DNA of 21,219 nucleotides from a virus, in IMG/VR virus record IMGVR_UViG_3300007520_000094, positions 1-21,219 of that record. One strand, given 5' to 3'. Of the stretch, positions 7,997 through 14,005 are shown piece by piece. The notes below the pieces were generated by a model that worked only from the letters and a program-made list of their open reading frames with translations, was not told where the DNA came from and made no database searches. Within the stretch, counting starts at the first letter, position 1. Each line of letters begins with the position of its first letter. The translations under genes were made by a program, and so were the position numbers.

Positions 7997-8236
7997 TCAT
8001 CTCGCACTGTCATCCACGAATACCAGGTCAAAGGGCATATCCACGATCTTGATCCGGTCAGGACGTTCATACTCCATTTGGTTGATGCGCTTCATCGGTC
8101 CACAGGTGCATAGCCTTAGCCCTTGAAATTTCCTGTACACTTCCTTTACTGTGCCATAGTAGGCCAATGCCATTTCCCGATATTCGGGAGGGCTTTTTTT
8201 ATCACCACTTACGGTGATGTTTTGGATTATCACCAT
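7997..8236 (-). CDS. Truncated duplicate of the adjacent tail gene
   Basis: This 79-residue product aligns with the last 80 or so residues of the gene just upstream (8247-8684). Shared segments are YYG-x-VK-x-VY, QMEY-RPDRIKI-DMPF and the identical ending DDSAR. The N-terminal half is missing. It thus looks like a tandem partial duplication, possibly still translated from ATG 8236 (an in-frame TTG lies at 8242). A short palindrome (8175-8189) lies where the copies diverge most. Whether it has any function is unknown. It is the last gene before the convergent terminator. Confidence 0.55.
   Translation of the reverse strand: MVIIQNITVSGDKKSPPEYREMALAYYGTVKEVYRKFQGLRLCTCGPMKRINQMEYERPDRIKIVDMPFDLVFVDDSAR
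8175..8189. repeat. Short palindrome in coding DNA
   Basis: TCCCGA and TCGGGA flank TAT inside the duplicate tail gene. It resembles the CTCCCGATAGC palindrome at 17790-17809 and encodes PEYRE there on the minus strand. Confidence 0.6.
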
Positions 8237-8246
8237 TTTCAAATTT

Positions 8247-8684
8247 TTAGCGGGCGCTATCGTCTAAGAAATTGGTTTCAAAGGGCATGTCCAAGATCTT
8301 GATCCGATCAGGACGGGCATATTCCATTTGGCTTTTTCTCTTCAGTGGCGTGGTGCCGATGCGCTGTCCCTGAAGGGCGATATAAACCGATTTGACTATA
8401 CCGTAGTATCGCAATGCTCGAGTCCGATAGTTGGGAGCGGTTTTGACGCTCGTTTCTCCCATGTAGTCAAATGCCAGCTTGACATTGATGATCACCTTGG
8501 GTTTCTGCACTCTATTGCCCAGGTCATTGGTATCAGGCAAATCAATACTGATGAGGGCACAGGGAAAAGCCACAGCTGGACGCTGATCACTATCGAGCTG
8601 TCCAAAATCCATATCTATCCACTTGATGCCAGGCACGCCGTTGATGAGGTCGGCTACTTCTAGGAATATTTGATCGATGTCCAT
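8247..8684 (-). CDS. Tail-terminator-like / minor tail protein
   Basis: This 145-residue protein follows the gpG-like gene with a 2-base gap. In Mu-like phages a protein of this size at this place helps close the tail or join head and tail. The beginning (IDQIFLEVADLINGVPGIKWIDMDFGQL) and the AVAFPCALISIDLP strand are compatible with the tail terminator fold. The match to a known family is weak, so the name comes mostly from position. A shortened copy follows it. Confidence 0.5.
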   Translation of the reverse strand: MDIDQIFLEVADLINGVPGIKWIDMDFGQLDSDQRPAVAFPCALISIDLPDTNDLGNRVQKPKVIINVKLAFDYMGETSVKTAPNYRTRALRYYGIVKSVYIALQGQRIGTTPLKRKSQMEYARPDRIKILDMPFETNFLDDSAR

Positions 8685-8686
8685 AA

Positions 8687-9229
8687 TTATTTGATTTGAA
8701 ATTTTACTTTGATACGCTCCATGATGATCACATTCAGTTCTTTGGCATAGCCCATGTATTGCCGCTGTGGCATGTTGACGGTGTAGGCTTTGAAGGTTAA
8801 TCCTTTGCCTGCCGTGGTGCCTTTTTTGTACAATCCCATGCCTCCAAAGGCCTTAGATTTTGCGCCTTTCGTATAGCGGTTTCGGATGAAGAGCTCCGAC
8901 CGTGCAGCCCGATTGATCGTCCCGCCTTCATTGTGGATTCGCGCATAGGGAGTTCTGCTATTTCCCCCATTGAAGGTCACCCGGTCAGGCTTGATCGTCC
9001 CGGATATCGAGTTGAGCAGCTTGGAAGATTTCACCATGAGCGAACCGCCCTTTGGCTTATACTTCTTGCTGTGCGGTGCCCAGGCTACGCCGTCAAATGC
9101 TTTTCGGGTGAAGCTTCCTTTGAAGTACTCCACGCCAGATTGACGGATGATGGCAGGGACATCCTTGTCCACGAAGCCATTGAGCTTTCGAAAGAATTGG
9201 TCTATCTGTGCCTGTGCCTTATTTGCCAT
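8687..9229 (-). CDS. Phage virion morphogenesis protein (gpG-like)
   Basis: This 180-residue protein matches the phage virion morphogenesis family (Mu gpG, P2 gpS), thought to act in tail completion. Seen in order: an N-terminal helix (IDQFFRKLNGFV), FKGSFTRKAFDGVAW, a basic stretch with KKYKPKGGSLMVKSSKLLNSI, YARIHNEGGTI, and the late PQRQYMGYAKEL motif. These are the signatures of the family. The start overlaps the end of the portal gene by 11 bases, so translation is coupled. Confidence 0.85.
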   Translation of the reverse strand: MANKAQAQIDQFFRKLNGFVDKDVPAIIRQSGVEYFKGSFTRKAFDGVAWAPHSKKYKPKGGSLMVKSSKLLNSISGTIKPDRVTFNGGNSRTPYARIHNEGGTINRAARSELFIRNRYTKGAKSKAFGGMGLYKKGTTAGKGLTFKAYTVNMPQRQYMGYAKELNVIIMERIKVKFQIK

Positions 9230-11753
9230 CGCTGAGAAGCATTCCTTTGCGTTTGGATTCCACCGCTTTGATTTTCCTCCAGAGCAGAATATTCAGCTCT
9301 GAATCTTCCTGCTGAGCGATCACCTGAAAGATCTCCTCTTTGTAGTAGCTGAAATAAGTCAGCTGATATCCGGCTTTCTTATCCTGCATCCATACTTCAG
9401 TAGGATTGCTGAGCGTGTCCTTCAGTGCTTCTAGCAGCTCCTCACCTTTGGTACTTCCCGTTGGGAAATTCAGAGCTCTATCCTTGTGATCGGTCAGAAT
9501 TGGTTTTCCCTTCAGCACTGGCAGTCCAGCTATGAAGTCACCAATTGCCTGCTTTCCTATTGGGATTTCTTTTGTAGCTGCTGTCAATAGGCTATCAGAT
9601 AATTGTAGTCCATAGTCGGTAGCGGTCAGCTCATTCAGGAGTTTCTTAGTTTCCGTCAGATTCTTCCCGGCTATGTACTGCTGATTGGCAGTGAAGACTT
9701 CGCCTGTCACGGATCTATTCACGCCAAAGCCCTGGCTTGCTGCTTTCGCAAATTGATCTGAAGCAAAGTAGGTGTCAGCTCTAGCTTCCATCGCTGCAAA
9801 GTCCACGTCAGCGACTTCACTTGCCATCCTCGCAACTACATAGCATCTACAGTTCCAGCCATTAGGCGGAAATAGTTTCGCCCAAGCTGGGTGATTGGCA
9901 GGCAAGATCAACCCTTCTAATTTGGCATGCTCCTCACGGACTGCATTGTCTCCGACGGTCTTATATTCCCAGTAAGGAAACGTCTCCACATCCTCCATGA
10001 GATTATGAAAGTTGGTAGCAGCTTCACCTACGAGTGTTGCCGTATCGAACTCAGTCTTAAGCCAGGCATCATTCCACACGTCACCGATTCGCTTTGCATT
10101 CATCTTGAATATGTCGTAGCTCTTCGCGTTGCGGAAAGCTTCATTCAAGGCTTGCACTTCAGCCAGTGTTTTCCCCGCGGAAAAGCGATGCAAATTCAAC
10201 TCGAAGCTCGTCAGGAGATGCGGGTCATCCATGCCGTAGGTGAAGTCAAAAACTAGGTTACCAGACCTGACAGGTTTTGAAAACCTGTCAGGTCTCTGCA
10301 TTCCAAGCGTAATATTTTTCCCGTCAAGCCCTGCATTCAGTCCTTTGATCAGCGTTCGGCTGGTGTCCCAAAACAAATCCGCATCAAATCCCGCTTTGCC
10401 TTTTGCGGCTCCTATTCGCTCAATCAGTGCCTCACTTTTTACCCCCTCCGACTCCCCCTGAAGGGTGAGAGAATCGTGCATGTGGTGAGCTCCGCAACAT
10501 GCCCCGTCCTGCGGGGCTCTCAGAAAAAAATCACCTCCCCCATCTCCCCCTCCGGCTCCCCCTGGAGGGGGAGGGACTGCCTTGGCAAGAGCTAAGGCTA
10601 GTGTCGTAGTCAGATCAGTCTGCACTTTGGCAGCTGTCACTTCCACGCCAAACTTCTCCTTGATCCATTCCGGATCAAAGTCAAAGTATCCAAGAAGTCC
10701 ATGGACAAACTTCCAAAGCTGTGCTACATCTTCCGCTTCATCAAATTCGAAGCTTAAGCCTTCAGGTAAGACCCCATGCTTTACCAGCGCTGGGATGATG
10801 GTCTCATTCCAGGCCTCCTCCAGCATAGCCATGTCAGACTGCACTAACAGCCAAAGCATTTCCATAGATACTTCGTCCTTAGCCCGTGCTCCATTCTGCG
10901 TATCCTGACCAATCATACCGCCACTTAGCAGGTTGCATATCTTCGCACCGCAATGCTTCAAAAGGCTGTTATACACGTCACCGTTCGTGCTTGCGCCTTT
11001 GGCAAAGTCAAATTCTTCCGTCTCATCAATAATAAACCAAGCAGCCGAACCCATGTCCCGCATCATCGTCTCTGCTCTTTTCAGCATGGTAGCATCTTGG
11101 GTGTTGGTCTTCAGCACACGTGGTGGAATCCCGTAGATCTCGCAGAGCTCCGACCAGCAGGATTCAGCAAATCGGGTGAACAATGCCGGAGCTACCAGCT
11201 TATTCATGAGCCCCAGAGTCTTGGAGTTGAACTCCAGTATCCAAGTGCCGAATTCGGCAAGCTCTCTATACTTGATCGATTTGGAGGTGTCTCCATATTC
11301 TGGATAGAACAATCCTGTCTGTGGTACCACGTTATAGCGTGGAATCTTTTCCGCTGTCAGCTTGGATTCAGTTCCGTTTTTCTGAAACGAAAGCTCTACC
11401 AGGTTGTAGCCGAAAAGAATCGAATCCAAGGCTGAATTCGTCAGACTCCTATACAGCGGATTTTTCTTCAGGATCTTGGTAGCTTCCTCATCGATGTCAC
11501 CGTTTGCTTTCTTCAGGGAAAAAGAGGAACTGAAGACTTGATTCTTTCTATTATTCCACTGGCTGGAAAGCAAGGTGTCCAACTCACATTCATCAAAGAC
11601 CAACTGAATTGCCCAGTTTTGGGGCTGCTCGCCCATACGTGCCATGTTCAGACCGGTGTTCCAGGACTTCATGTCCATACGGGTTCGGCTGATTGTTTTT
11701 GGTACCCAAGGCAGGTAGCTTTTCCCGACTTTGGCGTTTTGGTTTTCTGACAT
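9219..11753 (-). CDS. Portal-MuF fusion with C-terminal PBECR-like domain
   Basis: The 844-residue product joins three parts. Residues about 1-392 resemble the DUF935 (Mu gp29) portal: WAIQLVFDECELDTLLSSQW, LLVQSDMAMLEEAWNETII. Residues about 440-650 contain a MuF (gp30) head morphogenesis domain ending in the NGWNCRCYVVARM motif near 630. Residues about 730-835 (NPTEVWMQDKKAGYQLTYF and following) resemble the PBECR group of barnase/EndoU/colicin-like RNases. In Mu, portal and F are separate genes. Two repeat insertions lie in frame: a Gly/Pro-rich linker (393-437) at the portal-MuF junction and RPDRFSKPVRS (486-497). The portal ring feeds DNA into the capsid, and MuF proteins are packaged in virions. 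The toxin reading is an inference from the C-terminal pattern. Confidence 0.85.
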   Translation of the reverse strand: MSENQNAKVGKSYLPWVPKTISRTRMDMKSWNTGLNMARMGEQPQNWAIQLVFDECELDTLLSSQWNNRKNQVFSSSFSLKKANGDIDEEATKILKKNPLYRSLTNSALDSILFGYNLVELSFQKNGTESKLTAEKIPRYNVVPQTGLFYPEYGDTSKSIKYRELAEFGTWILEFNSKTLGLMNKLVAPALFTRFAESCWSELCEIYGIPPRVLKTNTQDATMLKRAETMMRDMGSAAWFIIDETEEFDFAKGASTNGDVYNSLLKHCGAKICNLLSGGMIGQDTQNGARAKDEVSMEMLWLLVQSDMAMLEEAWNETIIPALVKHGVLPEGLSFEFDEAEDVAQLWKFVHGLLGYFDFDPEWIKEKFGVEVTAAKVQTDLTTTLALALAKAVPPPPGGAGGGDGGGDFFLRAPQDGACCGAHHMHDSLTLQGESEGVKSEALIERIGAAKGKAGFDADLFWDTSRTLIKGLNAGLDGKNITLGMQRPDRFSKPVRSGNLVFDFTYGMDDPHLLTSFELNLHRFSAGKTLAEVQALNEAFRNAKSYDIFKMNAKRIGDVWNDAWLKTEFDTATLVGEAATNFHNLMEDVETFPYWEYKTVGDNAVREEHAKLEGLILPANHPAWAKLFPPNGWNCRCYVVARMASEVADVDFAAMEARADTYFASDQFAKAASQGFGVNRSVTGEVFTANQQYIAGKNLTETKKLLNELTATDYGLQLSDSLLTAATKEIPIGKQAIGDFIAGLPVLKGKPILTDHKDRALNFPTGSTKGEELLEALKDTLSNPTEVWMQDKKAGYQLTYFSYYKEEIFQVIAQQEDSELNILLWRKIKAVESKRKGMLLSDGK
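10263..10295. repeat. 33-bp palindrome translated inside the portal gene
   Basis: AGACCTGACAGGTTTT (10263-10278) pairs exactly with 10280-10295 around a single base. The total length, 33, is a multiple of three and encodes RPDRFSKPVRS on the minus strand. It belongs to the same family as the tandem repeat at 7133-7204. Confidence 0.95.
10442..10576. repeat. GC-rich repeat cluster inside the portal gene
   Basis: About 135 bases contain CTCCCCCT/AGGGGGAG arms (10556-10573), a GCCCCG/CGGGGC hairpin (10501-10517) and several CCCCCT-rich stretches of the type often found between Bacteroidota genes. It is translated as a Gly/Pro/Cys/His linker of about 45 residues between portal and MuF domains. 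Boundaries are approximate. Confidence 0.75.
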
Positions 11754-11755
11754 GA

Positions 11756-12175
11756 TTAGTATCCGTAATGGTTGAACTTAGGATTAGAGCCTGTTCGGAA
11801 CGGTTTGTCTGATACTTCCGCTTCCAGGAGTGGCCATCCTGCTTGGATGTTTGCCCGGATGTCCTTCAGCTCGTGAAGTGCCGCGGTGTATCTTCGCTCA
11901 GCTAGATCGAGATCCACCGTCACATTGGCCACTGCGATGAAGTGCCACTTGGCGATATCCTTCACGTAGGTGATCAGGTTCGAATACTTCTTCTTCTCCT
12001 CTGCATCCGTAGTATCGAAGATGGTAGCCGTGTTATACCTGGACAGGTATTGCGAAGCCTGGAGAATCGCCGAGTCGAGTGCTTCCTGCACATTGGAATC
12101 ATCGTCCCGGCTGATCACATCCATGCCCTCGGGATAGATGTGGGTGGAAAGGTCTAAGATTGATATTAATGGCAT
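11756..12175 (-). CDS. gp36-like head-tail connector protein (DUF1320-like)
   Basis: This 139-residue helical protein is positioned just before the portal gene (2-base gap). Features are a short N-terminal ISILDLSTHIY segment, a helix with VQEALDSAILQASQYLSRY, then YSNLITYVKDIAKWHFIAVANV and a C-terminal RYTAALHELKDI helix. This is the pattern of Mu gp36/DUF1320 and similar connector proteins that attach below the portal. Order among the head genes supports the assignment, though the sequence match is moderate. Confidence 0.65.
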   Translation of the reverse strand: MPLISILDLSTHIYPEGMDVISRDDDSNVQEALDSAILQASQYLSRYNTATIFDTTDAEEKKKYSNLITYVKDIAKWHFIAVANVTVDLDLAERRYTAALHELKDIRANIQAGWPLLEAEVSDKPFRTGSNPKFNHYGY

Positions 12176-12436: not shown

Positions 12437-14005
12437 TTAATAATGGTTATCCGATCGGGAGCCTATCACGTAGGTGGATTCCCGGTGAGCTGTGCGCCTG
12501 TTCACATTCGTGAATGCGCCATGCACGGCATCGGGGCCGTCATCATGTGCCTGTGAGCCTTTCTCAAATGCCAGGAATTGATTGATCAGTTCGAGTTGAT
12601 CTACTGTCTGGTAGTCATCGTTGAAGAAGACCATGTGCTTTTCGAAGAATCCAAGTAAGGACTCGATCCGGTCGAACTTGTCACCCTTGGTACTTTTATC
12701 AGGCCTGACGGGGATGTAGAATCCCCGCTGATCACCCTCCATGTCGAAGTCATTGGTGAACTCATCCATTGCAAAGAGCCCTTCGATCAGGTAGCGAATG
12801 TTTTGCTTTCCCAGATCGAGCAATTCATACATATCATAGAGCCATCTGGCGACATCCGAGCGGCTCTTTTGCCGGAGATACACCAGGAGGATATGAAATT
12901 CCCTGCCCTTTTTCCCTACCAAAACCATCGCCTTGAAGTCACCATTTGCCTTGTAGGATAAATCGCCGTAAAAGCAGAGCGCCTCGTAGTCGCGCATAAA
13001 GTACGGAGACTTATAAAGCATGTCCTTTGACTTAAAGACCTTCCCTTCCTCAATGTGGACGTGCATGTATTCACGCATAAAGGAGCGGTACGGCATATGT
13101 TCATACTTGTCTCTCCAGTGTGCTGCACTTCCCTGCTCTGGCCACTCGGGTTCAAAATCCGTCGTGTCCTTTACGGCACATACCCGGAATACTTCAAAGT
13201 AGGTTCTTGACTTCCTGCCAGACATTTGCTGCTTGGCCAGTTGCTCCAAGAAATAGACCCGCAAACGGTTGGTGATGGAATTCCGGTGGAAGTTATTGTT
13301 GGCGAAAATGAATCGGTTGGTTGCATCTTCATCAGCCGCAAAACAGCCCCACACGTCCTCAGTCATGAAGTCCAACGCCTCACGCATCAGGCGGTCATTG
13401 TTCACATGCTTTTTGCTATCGACGTCATCGACTACGATGTAATCGGGACGGTCGGCATCTTCTCTAGATCCTCGCGGATCCTGCCCAAAACCTATAGCAG
13501 CGAATCGAACGCCATCCGTGGTAAGGAAAGAGCCTGAAGCCCAATCTCCATACTGTGCTTTCTCACCGTAATCATTCTTCAAACGGTTGTTATGGGTGAG
13601 CTGAGATTGGACACCTCCAAGAAGCCTGTTTGCTTTCTCCTCAGTCTGACCGATAAGGAGCATGTACCTCAGGTCATTTTTTGCCAGGTAGAGAAATAGC
13701 GGGATACCCATATCTATATGCACAGATTTGCCAGCACCTCGGAACATCTCAGCCAGTAGGCGAATGCTTTTGTTGTCCACGATCAGCCCGGCAAGTCTCT
13801 TATGAAACCATGCGGACTTCTTTTTGGCAAAGTTGGGAAAGTAGTATTCGAACCACTTGATGTAATCCTTTTCCAGCGTCTGAATCCTACGCACTTTCCT
13901 CTCTGGTAGCTCGTGGATATCCACGGTCGTAGCCTTGGAGATACGGGCGCAATGCTTGTCGTAGTCCGAGAGCAATCGGAGATATTTCCTATTCTCGATG
14001 CTCAT
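12437..14005 (-). CDS. Terminase large subunit
   Basis: This 522-residue DNA packaging motor has the expected ATPase and nuclease parts. A Walker A-like motif lies at residues 84-94 (LAEMFRGAGKS), Walker B at 189-194 (YIVVDD), and a coupling motif at about 233-238 (IFANNN). The RNase H-like nuclease has Asp348 in FYGDLSY, Glu408 in YLIEGLF and the late HDDGPDAVHG motif near 487-496. The protein pumps DNA into the prohead through the portal and cuts it. The start overlaps the small-subunit stop as TAATG. Length is typical for Mu-like terminases. No insertions are seen in it. Confidence 0.95.
   Translation of the reverse strand: MSIENRKYLRLLSDYDKHCARISKATTVDIHELPERKVRRIQTLEKDYIKWFEYYFPNFAKKKSAWFHKRLAGLIVDNKSIRLLAEMFRGAGKSVHIDMGIPLFLYLAKNDLRYMLLIGQTEEKANRLLGGVQSQLTHNNRLKNDYGEKAQYGDWASGSFLTTDGVRFAAIGFGQDPRGSREDADRPDYIVVDDVDSKKHVNNDRLMREALDFMTEDVWGCFAADEDATNRFIFANNNFHRNSITNRLRVYFLEQLAKQQMSGRKSRTYFEVFRVCAVKDTTDFEPEWPEQGSAAHWRDKYEHMPYRSFMREYMHVHIEEGKVFKSKDMLYKSPYFMRDYEALCFYGDLSYKANGDFKAMVLVGKKGREFHILLVYLRQKSRSDVARWLYDMYELLDLGKQNIRYLIEGLFAMDEFTNDFDMEGDQRGFYIPVRPDKSTKGDKFDRIESLLGFFEKHMVFFNDDYQTVDQLELINQFLAFEKGSQAHDDGPDAVHGAFTNVNRRTAHRESTYVIGSRSDNHY

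Follow-up and report, generated by a model that had tools for sequence, protein, structure and literature searches.

A portal–MuF–PBECR2 fusion protein with an apparently lost active site, and an apparently new pseudoknotted RNA behind the intact genes of its phage relatives

The fusion gene and its relatives

The window analysed here is a stretch of viral DNA of 21,219 nucleotides (nt; IMG/VR record IMGVR_UViG_3300007520_000094, positions 1 to 21,219). A gene on its minus strand encodes a phage portal, a MuF head domain and a PBECR2 nuclease-type domain in one protein. A preliminary description, made from the letters of the window, had read the three parts in one frame of 844 residues, and this reading was borne out: the coordinates were right, the gene lies on the minus strand, and three Pfam domains were found. 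It was also confirmed that Mu makes the portal (gp29) and F (gp30) from separate genes. The features of the gene and of its 3' end are as follows.

9219–11753, minus strand: portal–MuF–PBECR2 fusion protein, 844 residues, ATG start (open reading frame and Pfam)
10644–11600, minus strand: Portal_Mu domain, residues 52–370 (Pfam, E = 2e-64)
9837–10124, minus strand: Phage_Mu_F domain, residues 544–639 (Pfam, E = 2.8e-12)
9234–9551, minus strand: PBECR2 domain (PF18810), residues 735–840, predicted BECR fold, active site lost (Pfam, E = 1.2e-6)
9477–9491, minus strand: D755–R759 (DHKDR), the window form of the conserved DYxxR motif, with the Tyr position taken by H756 (alignment)
9282–9284, minus strand: codon of L824, at the strand-4 catalytic Thr/Ser position (alignment and model)
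9219–9229, no strand assigned: overlap of 11 bases between the fusion gene end and the tail completion gene; the RNA slot of intact relatives is absent (gene coordinates)
8687–9229, minus strand: tail completion gene (Phage_tail_S, gpG-like; Pfam), the neighbour used for slot measurement

The likeness of the C-terminus to PBECR domains, proposed in the preliminary description, held in the profile search, which placed PBECR2 at residues 735–840 with 29.1 bits, above the curated cut-off of 27.1. Two other IMG/VR contigs (L002 and L003) are 100% identical over the portion of the fusion gene present on them; thus, an assembly error is an unlikely origin for the fusion. The linker that joins the portal domain to the MuF domain contains in-frame palindromic and G-rich repeat-like stretches (window 10263–10295 and about 10532–10576), and a similar G-rich stretch is present in the split MuF open reading frame (ORF) of another locus, L005.

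Relatives were collected in two samples. The first came from a viral scan in which four aligned fused proteins served as the query, and the best 80 of at least 578 confirmed loci were used; four genome loci were also taken in, and the total at that stage was 96 loci. Portal–MuF–PBECR2 fusions account for 57 of the 96. The rest comprise 31 loci with separate portal and MuF genes without PBECR2, four with a separate portal and a MuF–PBECR2 protein, two MuF–PBECR2 pieces, one MuF–PBECR2 protein beside a portal–MuF protein, and one portal–MuF protein ended by the contig edge. As the same combination occurs in 57 loci, the three-domain frame is not due to chance. These proportions are not natural frequencies, because the loci were chosen for similarity to fused proteins. 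The second sample, from two further scans, provided 40 new distinct PBECR2 C-termini, 39 of them with a measurable slot.

The combination of portal, MuF and PBECR was published by Iyer et al. (2017; PMC5512222), and in the available part of that paper the domain combination and the family group are the same as those of the window protein. The same part mentions neither an RNA partner nor decay, and gives the PBECR active site as His and Thr/Ser, both of which are missing in the window copy. The window protein is an apparently inactivated member of this already published architecture.

Loss of the active site

The active site was compared among 54 distinct C-termini, with the window and its copy L003 each counted. 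His and Thr/Ser are both present in 40 of them. His is absent in the other 14, of which eight have lost Thr/Ser as well and six retain it; loss of Thr/Ser alone was found in none of the 54. In the window, the stretch that reads F..HTT in relatives and carries the catalytic His is deleted, and Leu824 replaces the Thr/Ser. The sole His nearby, H756, is aligned with the Tyr of DYxxR, not with the catalytic His. Both catalytic residues are retained in the nearest relatives, from Belliella and Cecembia. The suggestion in the preliminary description that an active toxin-like domain might be attached to the portal of every virion is therefore not supported for the window copy, and the window nuclease looks inactive.

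The scaffold of the domain is conserved. Glu786 is present in all 54 C-termini, Pro784, Arg835 and Gly837 in 53, and Arg759 and Trp788 in 52; the window keeps all of these and Asp755. Thus, the domain is a maintained fold and not a broken gene. Structure prediction, which had been proposed as a check, gave a BECR-like fold. The mean AlphaFold confidence (predicted local distance difference test) is 79 for the last 147 residues of the window protein and 90 for the intact Cecembia homologue. The window model has a helix (74–85) followed by strands 89–95, 98–107, 110–119, 122–131 and 141–144. In the homologue model, His59 follows the helix 53–58, and Thr125 lies within the strand 121–128. The neighbours of the window model are a Salmonella toxin–antitoxin chain (Z = 7.0), BrnT (6.2), colicin E5 (5.5) and RelE (5.2), all modest scores; the colicin chain is 3ao9, listed as a sequence-specific ribonuclease, which we take to be colicin E5. 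Two unrelated human RMI1 chains, aligned to other residues, are within the first five matches. The homologue model has BrnT, RelE and CdiA toxins as neighbours, with Z up to 5.9, likewise modest. No match was obtained by Foldseek at E ≤ 0.001. The likeness to the BECR-fold ribonucleases (BrnT, RelE, colicin E5 and CdiA toxins) is one of predicted fold, with Z ≤ 7.

A putative convergent RNA gene in the slot behind intact genes

No immunity gene was recognised near the fusion gene in the preliminary description, and none was found in the window, where the stop codon overlaps the next gene by 11 bases. The distance from the fusion gene stop to the tail completion gene is called the slot. In the 39 intact loci of the first sample it measures 143–283 nt, except in three loci where it exceeds 1 kb because other genes intervene. 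In the 17 degenerate loci it measures 17–93 nt, and the two ranges do not overlap. A slot is thus present in 39/39 intact and 0/17 degenerate loci.

The intact gap contains a conserved stretch and, on the opposite strand, the motif TAnnTTTG; many loci also have a hairpin by the portal stop. Of 40 intact loci, 38 have the motif, presumably the Bacteroidota −7 promoter element, on the opposite strand, versus 1 of 13 degenerate loci. As controls, 2 of 43 intact loci have it on the same strand, and it occurs in 237 of 2580 random windows (9%). A small immunity protein was considered as the content of the slot and rejected: an ATG-started ORF of at least 45 residues on the opposite strand was found in just 5 of 36 intact loci, and among these five one ORF was shared only by the near-copies L011 and L088. 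In the comparison group of split loci without PBECR2, such an ORF was found in 14 of 22. Same-strand ORFs of 41–52 residues, annotated in Porphyromonas phages, are not general either.

The slot of intact relatives holds a putative RNA gene of about 95 nt, which lies behind the stop codon of the fusion gene on the opposite strand and has a promoter motif of its own. Twelve sequences aligned with MAFFT gave three stems and a pseudoknot in which the loop of the second stem pairs with the 3' tail. In this alignment, 97% of the pseudoknot cells are paired, four of the six pairs are changed on both sides, and the covariation is 0.383 against 0.171 in shuffles (0/500). As the structure was drawn from these 12 sequences, it was tested on others. 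A covariance model built without the pseudoknot matched 35 loci at E ≤ 0.0021, with one match per locus, all on the minus strand and in the slot. The model matches 34 of the 40 intact loci, and it matches neither the window nor any of the 17 degenerate loci. The alignment of 30 matches shows a covariation of 0.519 against 0.185 in shuffles (0/500), and versions slid along the sequence reach 0.123 at most; such model-made alignments are biased towards the three stems of the model, not towards the pseudoknot. In the 18 sequences outside the drawing set, 85 of 101 pseudoknot cells are paired, and the best of 2000 shuffles gave 77%. In the second sample, 20 RNAs show a covariation of 0.609 against 0.195 (0/500), and 96 of 114 pseudoknot cells are paired (best of 2000 shuffles, 79%).

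Known RNAs were searched as well. Of 10 loci searched with Rfam 15 at the gathering threshold, only L035 gave a match, to an unrelated group II intron; there was no match in the window, and relaxing the threshold to E = 10 in four loci brought no relevant one. With ARAGORN, 11 loci gave neither a tRNA nor a tmRNA. No paper recognised as describing this RNA was found in the openly licensed PMC literature. A general housekeeping RNA was considered and rejected: 3 of 395 genomes of the phylum were matched when 10 candidates per genome were scored, so that the RNA may be less rare than this count suggests; in two families the matches were 3/39 and 2/40 genomes. Of the latter, L124 and L125 (E = 0.001–0.003) look like chance; the genes beside them were interpreted as those for ATP synthase gamma and aspartate carbamoyltransferase. 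L127, from a pattern search, is also a chance match. The pseudoknotted RNA is apparently a new element tied to the catalytic residues of the nuclease. The group II intron (RF02012) lies at 12829–12976 of L035, a related prophage.

Joint loss of the active site and the RNA

A tree was made from the portal and MuF columns of 60 rows. Well-supported branches require at least seven changes in the state of the active site, and the best tree has 10. The window falls in one group with Belliella and Cecembia, in both of which the site is intact. The slot changes along with the active site in seven of seven independent contrasts (sign test, p = 0.0156). Rescored by the covariance-model match, five contrasts agree and two show no difference. 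As Thr/Ser loss is seen only where His is gone, the order would be His and the RNA first and Thr/Ser later.

In the second sample, the active site and the slot are concordant in 37 of 39 loci. A first mechanical rule gave 35/39, in which an alignment option had dropped inserted letters; L145 and L161 show the His in the plain sequence. A second rule left three rows with a measured slot unanchored, which agree by eye, and mislabelled the window through H756. The covariance model matches 20 of the 40 loci, all with His and none without. The active site and the RNA slot were lost together, repeatedly.

The slot in other MuF phages

In phages with split MuF genes, the same slot often holds a convergent gene for a small protein: 77 residues in L025, L037 and L042, 92 residues in L029 and L052, and 72–77 residues in L039, L054 and L060. 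Weak zincin-like matches were found in the MuF C-termini of L025 and L037. The small convergent proteins (72–92 residues) behind zincin-like or other MuF C-termini are candidate immunity proteins.

Behind LPD3 and CdiA_C-like C-termini, several loci carry short RNAs and no ORF of notable length. A scan for relatives of LPD3 gave 10 loci, two of them the contigs of L023 and L053; all 10 show the motif and, downstream of the stop codon, a hairpin RNA. The convergent hairpin RNAs of 65–85 nt behind the MuF–LPD3 stop are present in L023, L036, L053, L070 and L245–L253. A stem closing a 7-nt loop with U-G at positions 2–3 is found in 9 of 11 LPD3-linked RNAs; in 2000 shuffles the mean was 1.7 and the maximum 6. 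Read as anticodons, the loops are mostly GUA or GCA, which we take to be those of tRNA-Tyr and tRNA-Cys. These RNAs are candidate decoys for LPD3 nucleases that would mimic the tRNA anticodon arm. The PBECR2 RNA was also considered as an anticodon-loop mimic and rejected, with the loop in 2 of 30 sequences, not above shuffles.

Genomic surroundings of the window

The fusion gene is surrounded by Mu-like genes for the small and large terminase subunits, the adaptor, tail completion, a protease and the capsid. The gene order is shared with Porphyromonas gingivalis phages, and prophages of Belliella calami (57%) and Cecembia rubra (53%) are the loci closest to the window. The window belongs to a Mu-like phage of Bacteroidota, with its nearest relatives in Cyclobacteriaceae. 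Two neighbouring genes are located as follows.

11756–12175, minus strand: head–tail adaptor gene
12437–14005, minus strand: terminase large subunit (E = 1.9e-60)

An ORF of 81 residues (window 7997–8242) ends like the tail gene at 8247–8684 (RPDRIKIVDMPF/RPDRIKILDMPF) and is a partial duplicate.

Proposed mechanism and alternatives

We consider it probable, somewhat beyond an even chance, that intact PBECR2 is a virion endoribonuclease with an inhibitory RNA partner, and that the phage of the window has lost both while the domain is kept for structure. The nuclease domain, being part of the portal protein, would be produced late in infection. The convergent RNA of about 95 nt would be made in the producing cell and would most likely bind and block the nuclease until the virion leaves, and the nuclease would act, if at all, on reaching the next cell or a competitor. 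In the phage of the window, the nuclease would have decayed, the RNA gene would be gone, and the domain would be retained as a structural part of the head or portal. We infer the ribonuclease activity, its inhibition by RNA, the delivery in virions and the structural role.

The arrangement resembles the MuF polymorphic toxins of temperate phages, in which, according to the available parts of the papers, a MuF head domain and a C-terminal toxin domain are accompanied by an adjacent immunity gene (Jamet et al., 2017, PMC5576092; Bxa, Alexei et al., 2024, PMC11699363). Immunity there is provided by a small protein, whereas the PBECR2 slot holds a structured RNA on the opposite strand. The window has the MuF domain and the C-terminal toxin-type domain of this layout and has no adjacent immunity gene; the intact relatives have an RNA gene, not a protein gene.

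The antitoxin RNA of type III toxin–antitoxin systems lies upstream of the toxin gene. In such systems (ToxIN, CptIN), as far as the available descriptions go, an endoribonuclease is combined with a noncoding RNA, pseudoknotted in ToxIN, and the antitoxin RNA consists of tandem repeats. The PBECR2 RNA differs from them: it is not a tandem-repeat RNA upstream of a toxin gene but a single copy, downstream and convergent, by a BECR-type domain inside a structural virion protein.

Several points weigh against the pairing of an active nuclease with an inhibitory RNA. Six intact loci with a slot give no covariance-model match. Two loci of the second sample are discordant: L190, with an insertion in the domain, retains His and Thr and has no slot, and L164 has Tyr for His with the slot and the promoter motif kept. 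Near-identical loci count separately within the 39/39 and 17/17 of the first sample, and the 100-nt cut-off was chosen after that sample had been seen. The terminator scan, positive in 22 of 40 intact and 5 of 13 degenerate loci, told little. The G-U excess reaches significance in alignments fitted with the model and not in the unfitted alignment (21 versus 11, p = 0.11); the promoter motif is therefore the main basis for assigning the folding strand. Members of the RNA family are present without a PBECR2 gene in two chromosomes (L105/L118, 791–886; L106/L117, 7644–7741), and in a phage with an SPP1-type portal one adjoins the terminase genes with no PBECR2 detected (L126/L128; L126, 1501–1590). 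The orphan copies fit orphan immunity but weaken a strict one-to-one pairing.

Other explanations of the linkage were weighed. The RNA might be a positive partner or substrate of the nuclease (a cofactor, a processing target or a guide) instead of an inhibitor; the joint loss of the catalytic residues and the RNA is expected under either sign of interaction. We regard this as unlikely, as sister phages have convergent protein genes in the same slot, near the MuF toxin–immunity layout, and the LPD3-linked RNAs resemble anticodon-arm mimics. An RNA unrelated to the nuclease, such as a packaging or portal RNA like the phi29 pRNA or an antisense regulator of the late operon, would suit its position next to portal genes and the one copy by terminase genes in a phage without detected PBECR2. 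However, with the same portal the slot is lost when the catalytic residues are lost, in all seven contrasts, and compensatory changes maintain a specific fold, which makes such an RNA quite improbable.

The linkage could also be physical and not functional, if a single recombination event swaps the whole 3' end, namely the C-terminus and the intergenic region. In favour of this, the two features lie side by side, and in the first sample neither the His nor the slot is present in degenerate loci. The losses, however, recur on the tree, the degenerate domains differ among themselves yet align to the family, and Thr/Ser is kept after His loss in 6 of 14 cases, which looks like decay; we judge such a swap very unlikely. 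For the window itself, an activity through other residues, for example H756, R759 and E786, would agree with the kept fold and most of the conserved scaffold residues. The window has lost both published active-site positions together with the RNA slot, a pattern shared with other degenerate lineages, and a still active nuclease is highly improbable.

The preferred reading, a virion nuclease held in check by its RNA, bears on whether effectors in phage heads are toxins that need self-protection of the host. A small RNA that comes and goes with the catalytic residues is an evolutionary signal of such self-protection and names a testable pair. The chances are about even that MuF-class phage toxins can use RNA immunity more generally: PBECR2, LPD3 and perhaps CdiA_C-like C-termini would be paired with convergent RNAs, some of them anticodon-arm mimics, peptidase-like C-termini would be paired with proteins in the same slot, and the orphan chromosomal RNAs would serve as immunity against such phages. 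If the pairing of nuclease and RNA holds, polymorphic toxin systems would have immunity by RNA as well as by protein, and the folds of the RNAs may reveal the targets of the nucleases.

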